This document shows, piece by piece, positions 50,490 to 61,996 of a stretch of 61,996 nt of DNA. Each line of letters opens with the position of its first letter. Position 1 is the first letter of the stretch. Location: positions 1-61,996 of the IMG/VR virus record IMGVR_UViG_3300044302_003481; one strand, 5' to 3'. Under the pieces are notes generated by a model. It searched no databases, was not told where the DNA came from, and saw only the letters and a list, made by a program, of their open reading frames with translations. The translations under genes were made by a program, and so were the position numbers. The DNA is from a virus.

Positions 50490-51635
50490 TTATTCAGTGA
50501 TAGTGAAGGCTGTTGTAATGAAGTCCTTATTCAAGTTCGCAAAGCCGGCATAAAGTTGCCATATCAAAATGATAAAGCGACTGAAGTCGTCGTTGTTATT
50601 AATTAGAACTTGAGCATTTGGACCACCAATACCTACACCGATCGCCTGAGGGCCGAAGAATAGGCCGGCAGGAGTTTTCTTAGTTTGTGCACCATTACCA
50701 TCGCCGATATCGACCGAGATCTCTTTGTCAGGGAAGTTAGTAGATTCGAAGAATCTAACACCTTCAAAAACAAATCCTGATGGCATAACTGGCTCGCCAG
50801 CTACGAATTGTGCTTGACCGTACTGTCCGCCACCGTAGATAGCCTGGTTAGGAGCCATTGCACCCATAAGAGGGTTAGGCTGTCCCATACCTGGGTAACG
50901 TGCAATTTCACGGAAGCCTTGATCAGCACGTAGATCTTTCATAAGTGAAGGATCTGCTATGCAACGATAGTAGCCATCAGCGAAAACTGGTACGTGACGC
51001 TTACGTAAGCTCTTAACAACGTCTAAAAGGTCAGTTTTTACATTGAACTTGAAGCGCTCAGAAGCGTATTCTGTAGCTGTGTAAGCAGTAAGAGTAGTGG
51101 AGTTACTCTTAGCTTTTCCGTTAGGATAGTAGTAACCACCTTGTGAATCACTACTTTGACCACGTGATTCAGTCTTGAATAGCTCGTCTAAGAAGACGCG
51201 ATCACGCCAACGGCGATAATCATCAAGAAGGGTAAGCGATCCTATTGACTGATGGAACATGTTAAGGTTCCCAGTATCAAGCAATAGACGCTGAGCGGTC
51301 ATTAATGTCTCACGAGCAATCTTGAATGTGCTAGGGAGATTTGTGTTATTTGGATCTGCTGGTCCAGTATATTCACGGAGAGATACTAGAACCTTGTCCT
51401 TGACAATAGATCTGCTGTTTGCTGTACCAATGGTTTGATCCTGAGTACGCTCACGGCTTGTCTTAGTGCCAGGGTTACCAAAGAACCTGTAGCGGTCTAA
51501 CTGAACAGTTTGACCAGGTTGCTTAGTAAAGTCATGTACGACTACTGGTTCGGCAGCCATCTCCACAATATACGCTGGATGGGGCCTATAAAGCTCCGCA
51601 CCAAGCAGTTTGGGGAAATCGTTGTCTATAAACAT
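50490..51635 (-). CDS. Major capsid protein (381 aa)
   Basis: Size, position (after portal and scaffold) and sequence features fit an HK97-fold capsid: an N-arm with PGQTVQLDRYRF, a central helix (LLDVVKSLRKRHVPVFADG) typical of the spine/P-domain, a YRCIADPSL stretch, and a C-terminal strand-rich A-domain. No protease domain or maturation motif is visible. A long structured leader precedes it. Several hundred copies per virion would be expected. Confidence 0.8.
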   Translation of the reverse strand: MFIDNDFPKLLGAELYRPHPAYIVEMAAEPVVVHDFTKQPGQTVQLDRYRFFGNPGTKTSRERTQDQTIGTANSRSIVKDKVLVSLREYTGPADPNNTNLPSTFKIARETLMTAQRLLLDTGNLNMFHQSIGSLTLLDDYRRWRDRVFLDELFKTESRGQSSDSQGGYYYPNGKAKSNSTTLTAYTATEYASERFKFNVKTDLLDVVKSLRKRHVPVFADGYYRCIADPSLMKDLRADQGFREIARYPGMGQPNPLMGAMAPNQAIYGGGQYGQAQFVAGEPVMPSGFVFEGVRFFESTNFPDKEISVDIGDGNGAQTKKTPAGLFFGPQAIGVGIGGPNAQVLINNNDDFSRFIILIWQLYAGFANLNKDFITTAFTITE

Positions 51636-52416: not shown

Positions 52417-53457
52417 TTACTCCATTACAAGGAGCTTTTGACGGAAGATTTCAGGATCTTGCTGAGCTGCATTTAGATACTTCCAAGCTTCTTGAGGGTT
52501 ACGATCAGCTGCATTTCCGAAGTTATTCCAGAAATCAGTTGGGTTAGCCGCTCTCTGAGGCTGTGGAGGAACTGGCATCTCAGGGCGTGAAGGAGCTGCT
52601 GCAGCTGGAGCTTGTCCAGTAACATTAGGCTGTCCAGTTACCTGAGGAGCATTTGCATACTGCTGACCTACTGCTTGACCTTGAGGAGCTGCTGGTCTTT
52701 GTGCAGGAACAGGATAAGGACCATTCTCACCAAAGAACTCACATGTGTAATCAGCAAGAACATCTGGATCAGTAAGGATTCTTTCGTAAACCTTATGCTC
52801 TGCAGATAATTCCTTAAGTAGACCTGCTGCCTCATTTAACTGACCATTAGTAGCAGATACAGCATCTTCTAATTGACAAGAATAGTCATTAAGAATAGCT
52901 GCAGTGTCAGGACCAAAATGATCAATGACATTGATGCTTGCAGGACTAACTCCGTTTGCGAGGAGCTGGTCTGGTGTTATCTCCTGTAAGGTTTGGGAAG
53001 AGTTGTCCGAGTATGCCGGGCTGTTGTTGATCCCAGGCATAGAGGTCTGAAGACCCTGGTTGGCGAATTGGGTCGTTTGTTGGGAACCGTAACTGGCCGG
53101 GTCGACTGCTTGAGTCTGAGGCGACTGTTGACCCTGGAACGGGAATTGGACTGGTGAACTCAGGAGCCCCACCACCTTGTTGAACGCCTCCTTGTAAGGA
53201 CTCTCCTGCTGTTGGGGAGCCTGGGATACCTGGGGGCTGTACGCTGTAGGGGCTGAATTCTGGTAAGGTACCGCCGTCTGCGCTGGCGCTTGTGTCATTG
53301 GTGCCGCCATCGGCTGGGAGCTCGCCACCCATTGGGGAGACGTTCCCACTACGGGTGCCTGGGCTGCTGACTGAGCCGCTGGAGCCACGTAGCTGGTCGG
53401 CTGGGTCTGGGATACTTGGGGTGCCGATTGGGTCGGCGCTACGGTAGCGTCCTGCAT
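52417..53457 (-). CDS. Probable scaffolding protein (346 aa) overprinting the portal C-terminus
   Basis: The first ~170 residues are low-complexity Gln/Pro/Ala/Ser sequence, and the remainder has a helical core with ITPDQLLANG (about 165-175) and LEDAVSATNG, ending in a helical tail. Position between portal and capsid and the charged, Ala/Gln-rich nature fit a scaffold. The ATG at 53457 has an excellent GAAGGAAG Shine-Dalgarno seven bases upstream. Its first 512 nt overlap the portal gene in another frame. Confidence 0.7.
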   Translation of the reverse strand: MQDATVAPTQSAPQVSQTQPTSYVAPAAQSAAQAPVVGTSPQWVASSQPMAAPMTQAPAQTAVPYQNSAPTAYSPQVSQAPQQQESPYKEAFNKVVGLLSSPVQFPFQGQQSPQTQAVDPASYGSQQTTQFANQGLQTSMPGINNSPAYSDNSSQTLQEITPDQLLANGVSPASINVIDHFGPDTAAILNDYSCQLEDAVSATNGQLNEAAGLLKELSAEHKVYERILTDPDVLADYTCEFFGENGPYPVPAQRPAAPQGQAVGQQYANAPQVTGQPNVTGQAPAAAAPSRPEMPVPPQPQRAANPTDFWNNFGNAADRNPQEAWKYLNAAQQDPEIFRQKLLVME

Positions 53458-55195
53458 AAGTTACTTCCTTCTGTAATGATTCGAGGGTTCTATATAAAAA
53501 TGGGGTGAGATCAAGTCTCGGGTCTGCAGCCATCGGTAAATTCGGTTGCTGCGGATGCGGAGTCCTCATCTCTTGATTGACTAAGTCAATGAGTTGAGAA
53601 TACGCCCTCTGTACTTCTCCTACCATTCTAAACGGATAACCAGAAAGCATTCCTGCAATCTCGTCATCAGTTTTGGAAGGAAATAAATACTTCAGTGCTT
53701 CTATACTATCAACACCCAATTCTTGTAGGTTTCTTGTGAAGATAGATTGGTTCAATTTATCTTGTGCCGTATCCTCATAAACTGGTCCCATCCAACGCCA
53801 ACTAACTGATCTATCTCCGTCAGGAGCCAGTCCTACAACGCCATCTGGAATCTCTTTAGTCTCAACTGCAGCATCAATAGCTTTCTGTAAACGACTCTCA
53901 TATCTATCTTTTTGCTTTATATACTTCTCATATAGCACTTCATCATCGGGATCTTCAGGAGGAACTGGATATTTAATTCCTGATTGATAAGCTAATGACT
54001 TACGGAAGATTTGTTCTTCTTGGAAGATCATTAACTCAAAACACTTACAGACGCCGTATGTATAAAGCTGTAGGCATTTCTTCTTAGCTGTGGCACTAAC
54101 ACGTCCATAAGCTGATTTAATCTCCGTTGCAGTCACGTTTGTGATGCTTAGGTCATCAATACCACCTAGAGCGAGTCTTATCTCACTTCTAAGCTGTTCT
54201 GCATAACGAGCTTGGTCGGTACCTACAGCATTAGGAGTAATAAAACCAACACGATCAGTTGGCTCCAAATTAGCAATAACTCTTGGAACTCGGTAACCAC
54301 TACCTGGTTTACCTATGTAACCTGGTTGCTGTCTAGTTGTAGGGTCTTGTTTGAAAGTAGAACTAGAAAGATCAAAGTTTGAATTAAAACCAGATTGGCT
54401 AGAAATACTTGGCCTTTGTGCTACATCATCTGAGTTTTGCTCGATAATGTCTTGCTTTGGTCGAGAAGAAAGTAAAGTTGGATTTCCAAAGAATGATAAG
54501 TTTGCACGAATATTCTTTACCATCTCGTCATGAGCAACTATCTGACTAGATAACCACTCAAACTCACCAGCTCCATCAGTACCAAAAGCATCAGGATTAT
54601 TAAAAACTTCTACACATGGAATAAACTCCATACTGTTGTCATGCACTTTCTTATCGAAAGTGGCATAATCCATCTTTTCATTATCGAAAGTTATTTCTTG
54701 TTCACTATGAAATTCTTCAATCTCTTCAGGAGTAATACGTAAACGCATATAACGTTTATCTGTATTTAAACCTGCACCCTTAAATCCCTTAGAAGCTTTA
54801 ACTTTGTAAGGATAGATGATGATTACTTCTTCTAAATCACCTTCTGGCGAGTAATAAGTACGATAAGAATCTTTATCAAACCAATAAAGACGATAAGTCT
54901 TTTGTGTTGGTCGAATATAAAAAAGACCTTTTCCATAGGCTAAAAACCTATCCCATATGGAATCAAGTCTTGCATCTAATTTATTGAACTTTATAACCTG
55001 TTGAATAAAATCAAATCTTTGTGTTCCGAAGTTATCTTGATCAGGATAAAACTCAACTCCTTGACGTATCCCAAACATTTTCATTTGAGATAAATGAGCA
55101 TTAATCAGCATCGTGTCGGCTGATCCGCTACCGTCTCGATTTACTACCGCCTTAATAAGAGGATCGAGTGCGGATTTAGTAGCAGTATCACTCAT
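52946..55195 (-). CDS. Portal protein (749 aa)
   Basis: This large protein follows the terminase in the packaging order. The central core contains EQLRSEIRLALGGIDDLS and ATEIKSAYGRVSATAKKK, with a portal-like helical wing, preceded by strand-rich regions (DKDSYRTYYSPEGDLEEV). The last ~170 residues (beyond about 580) are a disordered Pro/Gly/Ser-rich extension that is encoded by DNA shared with the scaffold gene. The portal forms the dodecameric DNA entry ring of the capsid. Confidence 0.8.
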   Translation of the reverse strand: MSDTATKSALDPLIKAVVNRDGSGSADTMLINAHLSQMKMFGIRQGVEFYPDQDNFGTQRFDFIQQVIKFNKLDARLDSIWDRFLAYGKGLFYIRPTQKTYRLYWFDKDSYRTYYSPEGDLEEVIIIYPYKVKASKGFKGAGLNTDKRYMRLRITPEEIEEFHSEQEITFDNEKMDYATFDKKVHDNSMEFIPCVEVFNNPDAFGTDGAGEFEWLSSQIVAHDEMVKNIRANLSFFGNPTLLSSRPKQDIIEQNSDDVAQRPSISSQSGFNSNFDLSSSTFKQDPTTRQQPGYIGKPGSGYRVPRVIANLEPTDRVGFITPNAVGTDQARYAEQLRSEIRLALGGIDDLSITNVTATEIKSAYGRVSATAKKKCLQLYTYGVCKCFELMIFQEEQIFRKSLAYQSGIKYPVPPEDPDDEVLYEKYIKQKDRYESRLQKAIDAAVETKEIPDGVVGLAPDGDRSVSWRWMGPVYEDTAQDKLNQSIFTRNLQELGVDSIEALKYLFPSKTDDEIAGMLSGYPFRMVGEVQRAYSQLIDLVNQEMRTPHPQQPNLPMAADPRLDLTPFLYRTLESLQKEVTYAGRYRSADPIGTPSIPDPADQLRGSSGSVSSPGTRSGNVSPMGGELPADGGTNDTSASADGGTLPEFSPYSVQPPGIPGSPTAGESLQGGVQQGGGAPEFTSPIPVPGSTVASDSSSRPGQLRFPTNDPIRQPGSSDLYAWDQQQPGILGQLFPNLTGDNTRPAPRKRS

Positions 55196-55423: not shown

Positions 55424-56947
55424 TCAATACTCTAACTCTAGTTTTCCTTTGGTCATTAATCCATTACACAGCCATACCAATGCATCCACACAATCATCAT
55501 GGGAACTAACTCCAAAATTAACAATTTCATCAGTTAAATTAGTAAATCTCCTGTACTTATTAAATATAATTTTTCTCTGTTCAAAAAGACCCATAATTCC
55601 CCTAAAACGTGCAACTTTGTCCCCGCGAAATCCTTTAACTGCATGCCATATCATGTTATATAAACCCTGATCTCCTAAGCATATTCTTTTAAAATCAGCC
55701 TCTAAAGATGCCTGATAAGCAACAGCTTCTGACCAAATATGAACAGCATTTCCAGTAGGGAAATAATTTTTATTATCTTTGTGAATCACACCCCATTCTT
55801 CCATCATTTCCATTAAACTATCTAATTTTTCTAAATTACCCATAAGTCGTATTCTCTTGCAATCGATAATATGAATTTTGTCTTTAATACGACCTCCCAT
55901 TACAAAAACTGTATAGTCATTCTGTTCCCTTACTCCTGCTGATAAATCTACACCTACACCCATTGCATCAAATTGAGTCGCAATAGAACCTTTAACAATT
56001 AAATCTGGTGAAAGAGATAACTCACTTGTCTGTACAATTTGATTTTGATACTGGAAACTATAGGCAATTGGAGCTTGTCTTCGACGATCACGAAGATAAT
56101 CTAATGACCACATCTCAGGCCAATAAGATATTTCATCTCCATTCTTATCTACAGTTATTGCAGATTGAATAATTTGAACCCAATCATTTGCTGGAGTAAA
56201 AGTAGTTTTATGAATATCATCATGACGAAAACGAGTCCCTAGACAAACAGCTCTTCCACCCTCAAACATAGTTGGAACAATAACAGCATTCCAGTTGTCC
56301 TCCATAGCTTGGCGGATATCCCTATTTTTAATATCATCTGCACTCTTAATTGCGTCATCAATAATACAAAGATGAGAACGTTTAGATGTCACAGCACCCT
56401 TTAGACCTGCACAACAAACGGTAAATTCTTCTTCACCAGTAGATTTAATACCTGCAAATTTCCAATCAATACTCCAATATTCGTTTGAGTTTATTCCTTT
56501 AGCAATTTTTACTGTTGGAAAAACCTCTTTATAAGTCTTACTTTCTTCAATAATTCTTTTAATAGCGGCACTCTTAGGTCTTGCCACATCAACCGTATAA
56601 GAAATATATAAAATTTTCAAAGGCATACGCTTTAAAGCATGTACACCAATTGACCAAGCTGTGAACAAACCTAGAACCGTTGACTTAGCTGAACCTCGTG
56701 GAGCAAGAATATCAATATTAGGTCCAGCAATACCAGATAAACATTCACTACTATCACCCGTACATAGATATTTATGCCATTGTTTATGATGACTTGCAGG
56801 AGGTTTATCACCTACAACATCACAAAAATATGCAAAATCGACTCTTGCACGTTCGACATCAATATTGGAAGTCTTTTTGACTACCTGCTGCTTAGCTGCT
56901 GCTCTTGCAGTGCGTCTGTAGACGCTATAAATACTTGTACCTGCCAT
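55424..56947 (-). CDS. terL: Terminase large subunit (507 aa)
   Basis: The packaging ATPase shows Walker A APRGSAKST at 82-90 and a Walker B-like LCIIDD at 193-198. The C-terminal RNase H-like nuclease has VGVDLSAG (first catalytic Asp) and SSHDDCVDAL near the end. It pumps DNA through the portal and cuts at the end of packaging. The N-terminal 50 residues contain a basic linker. It lies downstream of the candidate small subunit. Confidence 0.92.
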   Translation of the reverse strand: MAGTSIYSVYRRTARAAAKQQVVKKTSNIDVERARVDFAYFCDVVGDKPPASHHKQWHKYLCTGDSSECLSGIAGPNIDILAPRGSAKSTVLGLFTAWSIGVHALKRMPLKILYISYTVDVARPKSAAIKRIIEESKTYKEVFPTVKIAKGINSNEYWSIDWKFAGIKSTGEEEFTVCCAGLKGAVTSKRSHLCIIDDAIKSADDIKNRDIRQAMEDNWNAVIVPTMFEGGRAVCLGTRFRHDDIHKTTFTPANDWVQIIQSAITVDKNGDEISYWPEMWSLDYLRDRRRQAPIAYSFQYQNQIVQTSELSLSPDLIVKGSIATQFDAMGVGVDLSAGVREQNDYTVFVMGGRIKDKIHIIDCKRIRLMGNLEKLDSLMEMMEEWGVIHKDNKNYFPTGNAVHIWSEAVAYQASLEADFKRICLGDQGLYNMIWHAVKGFRGDKVARFRGIMGLFEQRKIIFNKYRRFTNLTDEIVNFGVSSHDDCVDALVWLCNGLMTKGKLELEY

Positions 56948-56971: not shown

Positions 56972-57457
56972 CTAACTTTCCTCTTGTAAGATTTTTGTCC
57001 AAACTCCCATTGATGCTTCTGTTAATGGACCTTCAATAGGATCGTCTCTAAAAATAGACAACATTTCTCGTAAAGCTCTGTCTGCTCCAGCAAGAATTAA
57101 ACCTTGTTTATCTAGTAATACCTTCTCATCACTAAGTTGTTTAATCGTTCCCCTTAATTCCTTTTGAAGCATTGCAATTCTGGCGGTACCCATGTCCTGC
57201 TTCACCATACCTTGTTCAATACCAATTCTTAAATTAGAAATATCCTGCTGCATTGAATCAATTTCAGCTTCCAATACTTCATTAAAGTTACGCCTTTTGA
57301 ATTTTCTCTGAGCCCATTTATCGCATTGAACGATGGTACCTGTAAACCCAAGAAATCGGGAATACAAATACATTTGAATTGAGCTTCGAGTTTGTTTACA
57401 AAAGGCTAAAAAGGCTTCTCTATCTTTTAAAGAAAGGCTCTTTAACCATTCGGTCAT
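56972..57457 (-). CDS. Candidate terminase small subunit (161 aa)
   Basis: A helical 161-residue protein with an N-terminal region that could form an HTH (LKDREAFLAFCKQ, then SSIQMYLYSRFLG), a basic WAQRKFKRRNFNE stretch and a C-terminal oligomerisation helix. Its position, 24 bp before terL, fits a small subunit that recognises phage DNA. Sequence alone does not prove it. Confidence 0.5.
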   Translation of the reverse strand: MTEWLKSLSLKDREAFLAFCKQTRSSIQMYLYSRFLGFTGTIVQCDKWAQRKFKRRNFNEVLEAEIDSMQQDISNLRIGIEQGMVKQDMGTARIAMLQKELRGTIKQLSDEKVLLDKQGLILAGADRALREMLSIFRDDPIEGPLTEASMGVWTKILQEES

Positions 57458-58341
57458 ACTCTAGTTGCTGTGCGAGCTTGACTATAATCCCTATCCTCCT
57501 TGTAGCGACGGAAAGCTTCTCTTTGCATATCTGTACGACGTGTCTCTGATCCACGGGTCCTTTCTAACGCTCTGGCTTCTTCACCACCAACTCTTGCTAA
57601 TCCTCTTTCTCCTGTATATTTTTCAGCCTGTGTCTGTCTCTGTTGAGCCCCTCCTTCCCCTAATAATCCCCTTTCACCCGCATACCGCTCCGCTTGAGTC
57701 TGACGTTCTTCTTTTCCTTTAGAACTGACTAATCCTCTTTCACCGGCATAACGTTCGGATTGTGTTTCTCGTTGTTGCTTACCTCCTTCTCCTATTAGAC
57801 CTCTTTCTCCTGCATAACGTTCAGCTTGGGTTTCCCTTGCTTCTGCTGCAGTTGTCTTAACTAAGCCTCTTTCTCCTACATAACGCTCTGCTTGAGTTTC
57901 ACGAGCCTGTCTTCCACTCTCTTGTAATCCTTCGGATTGTGTTAATCGCTCTTGTTGCCCTTTTATACCTTCAGTTAACCTCGTTTGTGCGCCAACAGTT
58001 TCAGCAGTTTCTCGTTGTTCCGCTCCTTCAGTTTCTAACGCCTTTCTTCTTTCTAATCCTTCAACACCTACCTTTAATCGATCCTGCTTACCAATTGCCT
58101 CATACTCACCTTTTTTAAGATCAGAGGCTCCTTGAGCAGCTCTCATCTCTTCTGTTGTGAAATATGTCTTCAGACCCTTATCTTCTTCCGCAGCCAACTT
58201 CATGTTGATCCGCGTTTGTGCCGCAGCTGCCTCGTCCAGTACTAATTGGTTCGTTGTCTCCTGATCAACGGTATAGACATTACCGCCAATCGTATACTTT
58301 TTATCCGCAACCTTATTTGGATCGTTTTTGTCGTCAGCCAT
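57454..58341 (-). CDS. Repeat-rich helical virion protein (295 aa)
   Basis: Residues 147-256 hold five exact-length 22-residue repeats of the form RETQAERYAGERGL plus eight variable residues. Residues about 95-146 show more degenerate 11-residue units. The result should be a very long charged coiled coil. The protein overlaps the next gene by 4 nt. It may be an internal virion or assembly protein acting as a rod. Function unknown. Confidence 0.6.
   Translation of the reverse strand: MADDKNDPNKVADKKYTIGGNVYTVDQETTNQLVLDEAAAAQTRINMKLAAEEDKGLKTYFTTEEMRAAQGASDLKKGEYEAIGKQDRLKVGVEGLERRKALETEGAEQRETAETVGAQTRLTEGIKGQQERLTQSEGLQESGRQARETQAERYVGERGLVKTTAAEARETQAERYAGERGLIGEGGKQQRETQSERYAGERGLVSSKGKEERQTQAERYAGERGLLGEGGAQQRQTQAEKYTGERGLARVGGEEARALERTRGSETRRTDMQREAFRRYKEDRDYSQARTATRV
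57574..57903 (-). repeat. Five tandem 66-bp in-frame repeats
   Basis: The units encode residues 147-168, 169-190, 191-212, 213-234 and 235-256 of the helical protein. Every unit keeps the ERGL core; the last eight residues of each vary. Confidence 0.85.
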
Positions 58342-58393
58342 CTTTAAAATTTATCAATTAGCATTATTTAGATTCTACCAACGGTGAAGCTAA

Positions 58394-59152
58394 CTAACCT
58401 GTGAAGTATGTTCTCTTCAATCCTAATTGACCAAATTCGTTCGCCGCATCTTGTGACTTAGCTCTTGCTTCAATAAGTGCAGCCTTGGCTATACGTGGTA
58501 CTGCAAAAGCTTGTTGAGACATTAAATTAGTTCTTGCCACTCCCATTGGTGAGTTCATATAGTCATACATCTGAGCCTTATCTAACTGATAAGCATATTC
58601 ATTAGCAATCTTGTTATAAAGAAGATTTTGTTCCCTCTCTCTATCCTTCAGCCTCCTATCACGCCATCCCGAATAACCATCTTGTATAATCTTTCCAACT
58701 GACAGACCAGAACCTAGGTTTGGAACTGGGTCCGATGTAACTGCTTTTGTAGGATCATAATCTGGATTTTTCTTTTCAGCAAATATCTCAATAGGTACAC
58801 CTCCTAACGTATTTGGAGCATCTATTCTTCTTCCCCATTCATCTAAACCTGATCCTCTCTTATCAAGATCCCCTTTAGTCCAAGGTAATGCATCATATGC
58901 ACCAGTGAAAACTCTAGGTATACCTAACCACCCAGTAGGTGCATCTTCACTAATAATTACACCATCCCTGACTAATGTTCCATCAGGTAATTGTTCATAT
59001 TGTGGCCCTTTTTTTGTAGGATCAAATCTAGGATCAGGAATAGTTGGGTCCCAATAATTAATCCTCCCAACAGAAGAATTATTTCCCATCCCTAAGATGT
59101 TATTAATCTTAGTTAAGAAATTATCTTTGCGATTATTGAGTTTTGTACTCAT
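58394..59152 (-). CDS. Putative internal virion protein (252 aa)
   Basis: A 252-residue protein with a polar N-terminal half (Asp/Pro/Gly-rich) and a helical C-terminal region (EQNLLYNKIANEYAYQLDKA). No recognised motif. It belongs to the block of large polar genes upstream of the terminase. Such a block in short-tailed phages often encodes ejected internal proteins; that is inference. Confidence 0.55.
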   Translation of the reverse strand: MSTKLNNRKDNFLTKINNILGMGNNSSVGRINYWDPTIPDPRFDPTKKGPQYEQLPDGTLVRDGVIISEDAPTGWLGIPRVFTGAYDALPWTKGDLDKRGSGLDEWGRRIDAPNTLGGVPIEIFAEKKNPDYDPTKAVTSDPVPNLGSGLSVGKIIQDGYSGWRDRRLKDREREQNLLYNKIANEYAYQLDKAQMYDYMNSPMGVARTNLMSQQAFAVPRIAKAALIEARAKSQDAANEFGQLGLKRTYFTG

Positions 59153-59157
59153 GGTCC

Positions 59158-59952
59158 TTAGAAGTATCTAAAGTTGTTTCTGTTTTGCATTGCATTTGCT
59201 ACAGCTTGATTACTAGCTTCAGCCATATTAAATCCTGATGCCTGAGAAGCTTCACTCATCGCTCTAGCCATCTCAATATTCTCTTTTAACTGCTTAGCAG
59301 CGGCTTGACGAGCAAGGTCTGCTTTCTCTTTTCTCTCAGTCTGAGCAAAAGTCGTATCGCCAAGAATATTCATTACATTTGCGTTTGTTCTTGCATCTAA
59401 TTGTCTACCAAGCCTATCGCCAAATGGAACTCCTGCTGGATCTAAGCGATACCAGTAATTACCTTGTGGTCCCATCATCCGGTCAATCGTTCCTGGTGGT
59501 AAATTCTGACTTCCTAAAACATCTCCAGAATTAGGATCTCCTCGTCCTGATAATTGACTAGCTGCAATACCTCCAGTTCTATTTACTGCACCACCAACAG
59601 GTCCACCTGAACCACTTGTAGCCATTACACCTAGACCACTAGCAAGAGGTACACCTACAGCCGCTAAATTTTGTGCTCTTGAAAGAGGAACACCCATCTT
59701 AGTTAAGCCTGCTCTACCTAAGAAACGTGCTTTTGGTCCACCCAGTCCAAATATCTGCCCCATGGAAGCGCCTTGAAGACCACCCTGTATCATTCCTCCT
59801 AATCCTTCACCCTGTAATGCAGATGAACCAAACCCATAAGCACCACCATATTTCCACAAATTATTTCCTAAATGAGTACCAATAGGTCTAGCAAATCTTA
59901 ATGCGTCATCTAAATAAGGAAGACCTTTTGAAACTAGTGTGCCCCAACCCAT
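59158..59952 (-). CDS. Gly/Ala-rich putative internal virion protein (264 aa)
   Basis: The first 130 residues are Gly/Ala/Leu-rich with hydrophobic stretches (GGLQGASMGQIFGLGG), which could insert into membranes during DNA entry. The last 60 residues form an Ala/Glu/Met-rich helix. It is five bases from the 252-aa gene. Function is inferred from position and composition only. Confidence 0.55.
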   Translation of the reverse strand: MGWGTLVSKGLPYLDDALRFARPIGTHLGNNLWKYGGAYGFGSSALQGEGLGGMIQGGLQGASMGQIFGLGGPKARFLGRAGLTKMGVPLSRAQNLAAVGVPLASGLGVMATSGSGGPVGGAVNRTGGIAASQLSGRGDPNSGDVLGSQNLPPGTIDRMMGPQGNYWYRLDPAGVPFGDRLGRQLDARTNANVMNILGDTTFAQTERKEKADLARQAAAKQLKENIEMARAMSEASQASGFNMAEASNQAVANAMQNRNNFRYF

Positions 59953-59993
59953 TTTTTTAATCTCAATACATATATCTAATTATTTTAGTGGCT

Positions 59994-60239
59994 CTAACTC
60001 TTAGACAATAACTCTTCTTTAGCTAATGATAAATAATTCCGCAAAACGTTTAAATCAAGCATCAAAACTCCATCCACTTCATGCACAGCTTCAGGGATAA
60101 TTTCTTGTACTTGTTGTGCCGAAAATCCAGCTCTTAACGATTGAGCTGGATCTATATTTTCTTTATACCGAAATTGAATCGGCTCTAACTTTTTTAACTT
60201 CTCAAGCGCACTCACGGAGCCCCTTAACAAAGAATGCAA
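59994..60239 (-). CDS. S74-type chaperone C-terminal half (81 aa), separate frame
   Basis: The sequence ALEKLKKLEPIQFRYKENID, then GFSAQQVQEIIPEAV and LNVLRNYLSLAKEELL, is the second half of a peptidase S74 intramolecular chaperone domain. The first half of the domain, including DERLK, ends the preceding frame at 60202-60678. The two frames overlap by 38 nt. It is either a separate small subunit, a +1 frameshift product, or a broken gene. Confidence 0.65.
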   Translation of the reverse strand: MHSLLRGSVSALEKLKKLEPIQFRYKENIDPAQSLRAGFSAQQVQEIIPEAVHEVDGVLMLDLNVLRNYLSLAKEELLSKS

Positions 60240-60678
60240 TCTCAGCTAAAGAATCACTAACTTCAGTACTTTCTAGTGGAGCCATATCAACTTTAAGTCT
60301 TTCATCACAGGCGGCAAATAAAGCCTGTGCACCAGCAGAAACTCCAGCACCAACTGCACTACCAAGAAGCTTTTCACCAAGCCCAGGTTGAGAAGGAGCT
60401 GTTGGCATAATAGTTGCCTGTGGATGAGTGTATTGGAATAAGAAGTGTTTACCCTTATCACCTATAGGAGATATTGAACCTCCACCCATTGTTCCAGGAT
60501 TAAATACATTTTTATCTCCACTACCACTGCTACTTCCTCCACCCATTCCACCAGACTTCCAGATATCAAGAAAACTCTTTCCAAACTCAGGTCCGAAATT
60601 TTTAGAGAAGGCTCCCCCAAATGTTTCTTTCTCTTCAGAATTATCATCAACTCTCTTATGGATAGACTTGGTAGACAT
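60202..60678 (-). CDS. Virion protein with first half of an S74 domain (158 aa)
   Basis: A Gly/Ser-rich N-terminal region and a helical GEKLLGSAVGAGVSAGAQA stretch precede CDERLKVDMAPL, the start of a peptidase S74 domain. The frame then ends 30 residues later at TGA, and the rest of the domain continues in the +1 frame from 60239. Asp/Ser before RLK in S74 is the usual cleavage site; here it is CDE. The protein may form a trimer fused to its partner. Confidence 0.6.
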   Translation of the reverse strand: MSTKSIHKRVDDNSEEKETFGGAFSKNFGPEFGKSFLDIWKSGGMGGGSSSGSGDKNVFNPGTMGGGSISPIGDKGKHFLFQYTHPQATIMPTAPSQPGLGEKLLGSAVGAGVSAGAQALFAACDERLKVDMAPLESTEVSDSLAEIAFFVKGLRECA

Positions 60679-60715: not shown

Positions 60716-61534
60716 TTAGAAGTACTTAGTTGTTCCTCTTCCATAAACGTTATTAAGAAATCTATCTACATCCGTAGAAACTCCTGAAGAACCTCCCTGT
60801 ACACCTGGAGTACCCGCCTCGCCTCTTAACTCTATAAGTTCTCTTTTATGAGCATGCTTTAAATTTTCTAACTCAGTCTTAGCACGAGCAGCTTCTCTTG
60901 CTGATTCAACACTTGGGTTGTATTCATTAGAAGATCTACTACCTGTGTCACTTAAATCATAGCCTTCAACAGAATTTGAATAAGATGAACGAGGCTTTCC
61001 ACCTTCAGCAAATGCACTTAAAGCTAAGCCACCTGCAATCAATGGCGCAGCAGCCGTAGTTGCACCAACAACACTTGCAGTTATCTCCGGATTTTCATAA
61101 AGACCTCTTCTCCAACCTCGATCCTTTAAATCTTGAGTACTTTTTAAAAGGACGTCACCACTAGGATTAAAGAAAGTATCCTCAGGTCTAGGTCGCCCTG
61201 TTTGCACAGCACCTGCCTGTTGCTTAGGATTTGCTTTCTCAGTCAATCTACTGTAAGTAGCTCTAGCTGGATCTTCACCCATACGCTTCCAATATCCACT
61301 CATTACATTACCTAAATAGTCTTTTCCTTTAGCTAAAGCAGCATCAGTATCCTTTCCCATTATGTGCATTCCTATATCAGCAATGACGGGCCAATTACCT
61401 GGCAATTTACCAAGTAAAGCTCTTATTCCAACATCTCTTAATTCACTCGCAGTTTGATTTCTAGTTCCATCAGCTTTTACTGTAGGTCTTCTAAAAGTAG
61501 TTGAACCTTCTTTAGTTTCTTCCCAAGCAGCCAT
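60716..61534 (-). CDS. Putative internal virion protein (272 aa)
   Basis: The N-terminal 80 residues are mixed, residues about 160-180 are a hydrophobic helix (ASVVGATTAAAPLIAGGLAL), and a long charged helix lies at about 205-245 (SAREAARAKTELENLKHAHK). The start overlaps the stop of the truncated upstream gene (TAATG). A transmembrane-like segment together with a coiled coil fits an ejected internal protein. Confidence 0.55.
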   Translation of the reverse strand: MAAWEETKEGSTTFRRPTVKADGTRNQTASELRDVGIRALLGKLPGNWPVIADIGMHIMGKDTDAALAKGKDYLGNVMSGYWKRMGEDPARATYSRLTEKANPKQQAGAVQTGRPRPEDTFFNPSGDVLLKSTQDLKDRGWRRGLYENPEITASVVGATTAAAPLIAGGLALSAFAEGGKPRSSYSNSVEGYDLSDTGSRSSNEYNPSVESAREAARAKTELENLKHAHKRELIELRGEAGTPGVQGGSSGVSTDVDRFLNNVYGRGTTKYF

Positions 61535-61996
61535 TACACTGTTACCTCTTGACTTGGAGCTTTGTTAGCCTCATTAGGATTAGCTTCAGTACTACCAGCA
61601 TTAGCGGGTTCTTCAAACATATATCTAAGGTTGGATGAACCTACGAAAGTTTCGTCGTCTATTAGACGCGAGGCATAATATGTATCATAAAACGACTGCA
61701 CATCAGCCGTATCAACTCTATCTGCTAACCCACCTGTCTTATTACCTGGCGCAAAATCATTAAAGGCAAAATTTTCCCACTTCTTATAAGCATCATCAGC
61801 TGGTTTAAACCCTTTCTCATCAGGACTAATGAATGACCTTGCAGATCTATAGAAATCATTATCTCTAACGTCTGGGTTTGTATCATCTAAAAGACCTTTC
61901 CACTGAGCACTACCAGTTGTTTTATCAGGATCGAAATATTTATCTTGACTAAGTGAACCAGCTTCTGCCCATGGATTTACCTTAAGAGTCTTATCC
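61534..61996 (-). CDS. Partial gene at window end (C-terminal 153 aa)
   Basis: An open minus-strand frame enters from the window edge and ends at TAA 61534-61536. The visible part is polar and Asp/Asn/Phe-rich (KYFDPDKTTG, FISPDEKGFKPADD) with a disordered Glu/Pro/Asn-rich C-terminus. The start is outside the window. It overlaps the next gene by one base and is probably a virion protein. Confidence 0.6.
   Translation of the reverse strand, partial: DKTLKVNPWAEAGSLSQDKYFDPDKTTGSAQWKGLLDDTNPDVRDNDFYRSARSFISPDEKGFKPADDAYKKWENFAFNDFAPGNKTGGLADRVDTADVQSFYDTYYASRLIDDETFVGSSNLRYMFEEPANAGSTEANPNEANKAPSQEVTV

Follow-up and report, generated by a model that had tools for sequence, protein, structure and literature searches.

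An out-of-frame overlap of half a kilobase between the portal gene and a putative scaffold gene in a lineage of cyanobacterial viruses

On the minus strand of the virus record IMGVR_UViG_3300044302_003481, analysed over positions 1 to 61,996 (61,996 nucleotides, hereafter the window), the end of a portal gene and the beginning of the following gene are open in two different frames of the same DNA. This raises the question of whether both frames are used and, if so, how the second one is started and which of the two came first. The evidence described below makes it very probable that the shared 512-nt stretch is truly dual-coding, with the second protein, a putative scaffold, initiated internally within the portal gene.

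The overlapping gene pair and its products

The region between 49 and 58 kb of the window forms a head module on the minus strand (Table 1). In it, the portal gene is positioned between the terminase and capsid genes, as expected of a portal, and the scaffold-like gene sits between the portal and major capsid protein genes, as expected of a scaffold, with two short genes separating it from the latter. By the terminase module, a 295-aa protein with repeats of about 20 residues of the type RETQAERYAGERGL is encoded at 57454-58341 (minus strand). The lineage is a widespread virus group of freshwater and marine cyanobacteria.

Table 1. Coordinates of head-module genes and of features in and around the overlap (window positions).
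Feature	Position	Strand	Evidence or remark
Terminase large subunit gene	55424-56947	-	PF17289; phrog_38 5.9e-77
60-aa gene	between terminase and portal genes	-	
Portal gene, 749 aa	52946-55195	-	phrog_64 2.9e-6
Shine-Dalgarno sequence of scaffold-like gene, GAAGGAAG	53464-53471	-	6 nt from ATG; inside portal codons Gln-Lys-Glu
ATG of scaffold-like gene	53455-53457	-	spans portal Tyr580(TAT)-Ala581(GCA)
Scaffold-like gene, 346 aa	52417-53457	-	ORF
Portal/scaffold overlap, 512 nt, very probably dual-coding	52946-53457	-	ORFs; both frames under purifying selection
Conserved helix of scaffold-like protein, PYKEAFNKVVGLLSSPVQ, residues 87-104	53146-53199	-	scaffold-dominated segment
Portal C-terminal motif QPGILGQLFPN, residues 725-735	52991-53023	-	portal-dominated segment
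Major capsid protein gene	50490-51635	-	phrog_1357 major head protein 1.2e-14

A sequence-only reading of this DNA had proposed a same-strand overprinting of 512 nt, and its coordinates, strands and lengths were reproduced to the base. The scaffold-like gene is read in the +1 frame relative to the portal gene, and the overlap comprises 170 portal codons plus the stop codon. The enrichment in G+C that had been described for this stretch was evident as well (59.8%, whereas the portal core has 38.4% and the scaffold tail 44.9%), as was the low complexity of both encoded segments, which are dominated by Gly/Pro/Ser in the portal and by Gln/Ala/Pro/Ser in the scaffold-like protein. Their supposed disorder agrees with the structure models of both proteins, neither of which shows a fold there. 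A tandem-repeat origin of the GC-rich stretch was rejected, the sole tandem found being an unrelated one of 11 nt.

Profile and predicted-fold comparisons concur in identifying the 749-aa protein as a phage portal. With its low-confidence model, nearly all of the top 40 Foldseek matches were phage portals, and alignment with VIA-align gave Z scores of up to 7.0 over residues 52-206. The modelled core is folded to about residue 582, where a final long helix (564-582) ends; codon 580 is the first in the overlap. Residues 580-749, encoded in the overlap, are predicted from the same low-confidence model to form a disordered tail. Near its end lies the pattern PGIL-x-QLFPN, which was matched in 218 of 227 sequences of the lineage; the six non-matching sequences that were listed have near variants (PGIF, LFPS). 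The portal stop codon follows this pattern at a distance of 5 to 74 residues among the relatives.

The second protein is acidic (net charge -16) and yielded an AlphaFold model with a mean pLDDT of 45.8 and helices at pLDDT 55-72. In this model the N-terminal half is disordered with one short helix, followed by a long helix (185-229) and a C-terminal helical hairpin (306-344). The short helix (modelled over residues 87-100) coincides with the motif listed in Table 1, which was present in 205/227 relatives. No match was detected in Pfam, PHROG or PDB, and a sequence search of solved structures with the portal and scaffold alignments returned nothing convincing. The label "scaffold" in the sequence-only reading is thus backed by gene position and predicted architecture, not by homology. 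Taking gene position, acidic charge and predicted architecture together, it is quite likely that the protein is an assembly scaffold, and it will be called the scaffold below.

Persistence of both frames and selection on them

Scans of IMG/VR and of genome contigs yielded 399 loci, from which 234 distinct relatives (distinct portal genes), each with both genes complete, were counted. The dual open frame was found in 231/234 of them, with overlaps of 464-677 nt. They fall into two deep clades, A and B, whose portals are approximately 54% identical; both carry the overlap. Bacterial genome contigs contained four related stretches; the overlap was present in 3/3 readable ones. Scans with degenerate motifs and for outliers recovered overlapping members only, apart from the three exceptions L225, L254 and L337, which seem to reflect errors in the sequences or one-off mutations. 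The first contains frameshifts all through, including in its capsid gene. In L254, which shares its contig (IMGVR_UViG_3300030110_000115) with L215, a single indel within the overlap shifts both frames and, in the L215/L254 sequence, joins the N-terminal part of the scaffold to the C-terminal part of the portal; this is probably an error of assembly or, failing that, a double mutant that occurs in nature. In L337, one substitution turns portal codon 567, just upstream of the overlap, from CGA into TGA and leaves the remaining tail intact; this is either a sequencing error or a natural truncation. The distribution among relatives indicates that the overlap is old and widespread in aquatic viromes.

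Among isolate phages, only Synechococcus phage S-EIV1 (KJ410740) was matched by portal, scaffold or capsid in tblastn searches (54%, 36% and 70% identity to the window, respectively), and no non-overlapping relative was found. S-EIV1 resembles the window in gene order, in having both frames open and in an ATGCAGG start behind AAAAGGAG. Its sequence contains a full scaffold ORF of 325 aa from position 59287, corresponding to a 554-nt overlap. The GenBank record places the portal at 57537-59840 and, in the scaffold frame, a gene of 134 codons at 59863-60264; as this second gene is opened past the portal stop, the overlap is unannotated and the scaffold gene truncated. Two further features of this phage were observed. 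Its terminase large subunit (L082:2529-5069) is interrupted by a roughly 340-residue intein (PF14890, E 1.4e-11), which the terminase of the window lacks. Its major capsid protein (L082:9308-10459) is a complete 383-aa ORF with a GTG start, in place of which GenBank lists an ORF on the opposite strand (60784-61545) and a truncated fragment of the 3' part (61540-62010).

The S-EIV1 annotation agrees with a reading in which the portal frame alone is real and the second gene does not begin until the portal stop has been passed, the open frame upstream being a by-product of a GC-rich portal segment composed of Pro, Gly and Ser. Support for this reading also comes from the window itself. The sequence-only reading had considered a chance opening of such length unlikely, and the +1 frame of the portal core indeed contains 34 stops in 579 codons, so that 170 consecutive codons free of stops would hardly be expected in that core. 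When, however, the synonymous codons of the overlap were shuffled with the portal protein fixed, the scaffold frame was open in 12% of shuffles using its own codons, and in 2.3% using the codon usage of the portal core. With P = 0.12 in the window alone, a lone GC-rich sequence is no proof, and the claim holds by virtue of the relatives, which supply it. Shuffling own codons opened the second frame in 0.6% of cases in S-EIV1 and in none in another relative, L134.

For the comparative analysis, substitutions were scored by their effect in both frames with an own script in the style of OLGenie, not OLGenie itself (method: PMC7531306), and ratios of the dN/dS type were derived from 113 disjoint pairs. 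Mock frames taken in non-overlapping DNA gave values spanning 0.74-1.44 overall: 0.76 for the frame relation of the scaffold (in the portal core) and, for that of the portal (in the scaffold tail), 1.13-1.16 in clades A and B with wider intervals, and up to 1.44. In the overlap, scaffold dNN/dNS was 0.27 (0.25-0.30) and portal dNN/dSN was 0.47 (0.44-0.51), both below the mock values. These ratios show purifying selection on each frame, with the other frame accounted for, and provide the constraint in both frames that the sequence-only reading had suggested looking for.

Position-specific divergence changed in the same region. On entering the overlap, portal third-position divergence dropped from 0.47 to 0.20 in clade A and from 0.455 to 0.148 in clade B, and at portal first positions, which are third positions of the scaffold, divergence rose from 0.12-0.13 to 0.25. 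Scaffold third-position divergence was 0.51 in clade A and 0.41 in clade B outside, falling to 0.26 and 0.25, respectively, inside the overlap. When resolved over 20-codon windows, the scaffold frame was dominant nearly throughout, most strongly over the conserved helix FNKVVxLLSxPVQ, where portal-synonymous divergence went down to 0.04-0.07. The portal frame was dominant in alignment columns 140-180 past the overlap start, with a ratio of 0.19-0.20 at PGIL-x-QLFPN. Portal constraint was slight across the central part of the overlap (0.66-0.83) and disappeared beyond the LFPN motif (1.0-1.5), and portions of the portal tail may therefore be merely tolerated.

The reading in which only the portal frame is real is very improbable in view of (i) the scaffold ratio of 0.27 compared with the mock value of 0.76; (ii) the loss of over half of portal synonymous divergence exactly at the scaffold ATG; (iii) the maintenance of this ATG and its ribosome-binding site by biased synonymous choice (see below); (iv) simulated evolution. 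When selection was applied to one frame only, the other stayed open in ≤2.7% of runs, and simulated selection on the portal alone left the scaffold frame open in ≤2.7% of lineages, compared with the 231/234 observed. Comparative constraint and one-frame simulations likewise rule out a chance open frame. Relatives lacking one frame, or a lack of dual constraint, were what the sequence-only reading had named as speaking against an overprinted gene pair; nearly all keep both frames, and both are constrained.

Initiation of the scaffold and origin of the overlap

The strong ribosome-binding site previously ascribed to the scaffold gene was borne out by its predicted duplex with the anti-Shine-Dalgarno sequence (-6.2 kcal/mol, compared with +0.5 kcal/mol for that of the portal itself), which ranks second among the 12 structural-region genes that were checked. 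Overall, pairing energies ranged from -6.2 to -8.9 kcal/mol for the scaffold and from +0.5 to -4.6 kcal/mol for the portal. Comparison of the scaffold start among relatives, another check that had been proposed, placed it in one portal alignment column in 227/227 clean sequences, and start and ribosome-binding site alike are conserved in both deep clades.

Codon choice in the portal frame at these sites is biased. The Lys-Glu pair at the ribosome-binding site is encoded by AAA GAG in 100 relatives, AAG GAG in 98 and AAG GAA in 28. AAA GAA, the sole one of the four possible pairs that breaks the site, occurred at 0/226 Lys-Glu sites there and at 117/192 in the portal core, where it is the commonest. 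Similarly, the Tyr codon providing the AT of the scaffold ATG was TAT in 227/227, whereas 12/12 other invariant Tyr columns mix codons. As the sequences are related, these counts are not independent events. They indicate that synonymous choice in portal codons preserves the scaffold ATG and its Shine-Dalgarno sequence.

Two blocks of low synonymous variation were noted in the portal core. In either clade, synonymous sites hardly vary within them. The first, at 53693-53716 (minus strand), lies some 250 nt ahead of the scaffold ATG and had a 4-fold divergence of 0.23-0.29, compared with ~0.58; the second, likewise ahead of the ATG, covers approximately codons -35 to -29 relative to the overlap. 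These blocks possibly represent a cis element for the scaffold-capsid genes. An internal sigma-70 promoter for the scaffold was considered and rejected, none being present in 53300-54300, and the whole window contained no match to an Rfam element.

These observations suggest the following model. Ribosomes translating the portal gene would continue through the overlap in frame 0 and add the long disordered tail ending in the conserved PGIL-x-QLFPN motif; since no stop intervenes, the tail would be translated of necessity. A second set of ribosomes would be recruited by the Shine-Dalgarno sequence within the portal gene, some 510 nt ahead of its stop codon, to begin scaffold synthesis in the +1 frame. 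Most likely, internal initiation at this moderately strong site would yield much scaffold and little portal from one message, and the weak ribosome-binding site of the portal fits the need for few portals (~12 per particle) and many scaffolds. Both proteins are presumably made in the cell from these starts. Known portal structures are the basis for placing the portal tail in the capsid. By analogy, it would lie inside and act via its terminal motif. A programmed frameshift producing a portal-scaffold fusion, instead of or alongside internal initiation, would suit the shared strand, the +1 relation and the long common open region, but it is very improbable given a scaffold-frame stop (TAA or TGA) that usually lies 6 nt before the ATG and the conservation of a dedicated ribosome-binding site and ATG.

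With regard to the origin of the overlap, there is about an even chance that the scaffold gene is the older one, that loss of the portal stop codon let the portal frame extend into it, and that the portal tail is an overprinted novelty. Such a history would account for a folded portal core ending at about residue 582, right at the scaffold start; for solved portals among the matches being mostly 430-560 residues long; for the stronger constraint on the scaffold frame; and for a portal stop that drifts by up to ~70 residues among relatives, the last part being unconstrained. It is somewhat at odds with codon usage in the overlap, where the portal frame departs less from the phage norm than the scaffold frame (mean log-odds -0.28 vs -0.48), and the scans found no relative in the ancestral, non-overlapping state. 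The reverse order, in which the portal tail came first and the scaffold gene was extended by a new N-terminal half from a start gained further upstream, is distinctly less likely, though a real candidate. It is in line with a codon usage that slightly favours the portal frame, neither frame being typical, and with predicted capsid-binding helices of the scaffold that all lie outside the overlap; against it stands the tighter constraint acting on the scaffold frame, its conserved helix 87-100 included. The sequence-only reading had also suggested that one of the frames may have arisen from the other. The indicators of polarity disagree and no non-overlapping relative was found; an older scaffold gene is tentatively favoured over an older portal tail.

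It seems rather unlikely that the portal tail and the N-terminal half of the scaffold are interacting partners in the procapsid and that the overlap is a coupling device, not a stop-loss accident. If this were the case, every mutation would test both partners together, and recombination could not part them.

Comparison with known overlapping genes

Overlapping genes are well known, and the scaffolding proteins phiX174 B and lambda Nu3 are encoded within other genes. Tailed phages seldom have long out-of-frame overlaps, and gene callers usually drop those that occur. In the case described here, recognition of the overlap corrects the annotation of S-EIV1, the only isolate of the lineage. Among same-strand +1 overlaps of dsDNA viruses the median length is 14 nt, with an interquartile range of 8-26 (PMC8903798). 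The frame relation is the same here, but the 464-677 nt found in this lineage are far beyond the usual range. No report of a half-kilobase out-of-frame portal/scaffold overlap across a tailed-phage lineage was found in the open-licence papers searched.

In phiX174 (Microviridae), the internal scaffolding protein B is nested in gene A. Like the scaffold described here, B is a flexible scaffolding protein encoded out of frame in an essential gene and has its own internal start. However, phiX174 has a small ssDNA genome with tight packaging limits, and B is wholly nested in a replication gene, whereas the present case is a tailed dsDNA phage with a genome of ~80 kb, in which the overlap is terminal and the partner is the portal. 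The lambda pair C/Nu3 is similar in that the scaffold start lies within the upstream head gene and one stretch of DNA serves two head proteins; yet Nu3 is in the frame of C and shares its sequence, whereas portal and scaffold are read in different frames and have no sequence in common. The overlap is an unusually long case, kept across a lineage, of a known phenomenon, and it shows that two head-assembly genes can share code by way of disordered segments in the shared part, each frame with a short motif of its own.
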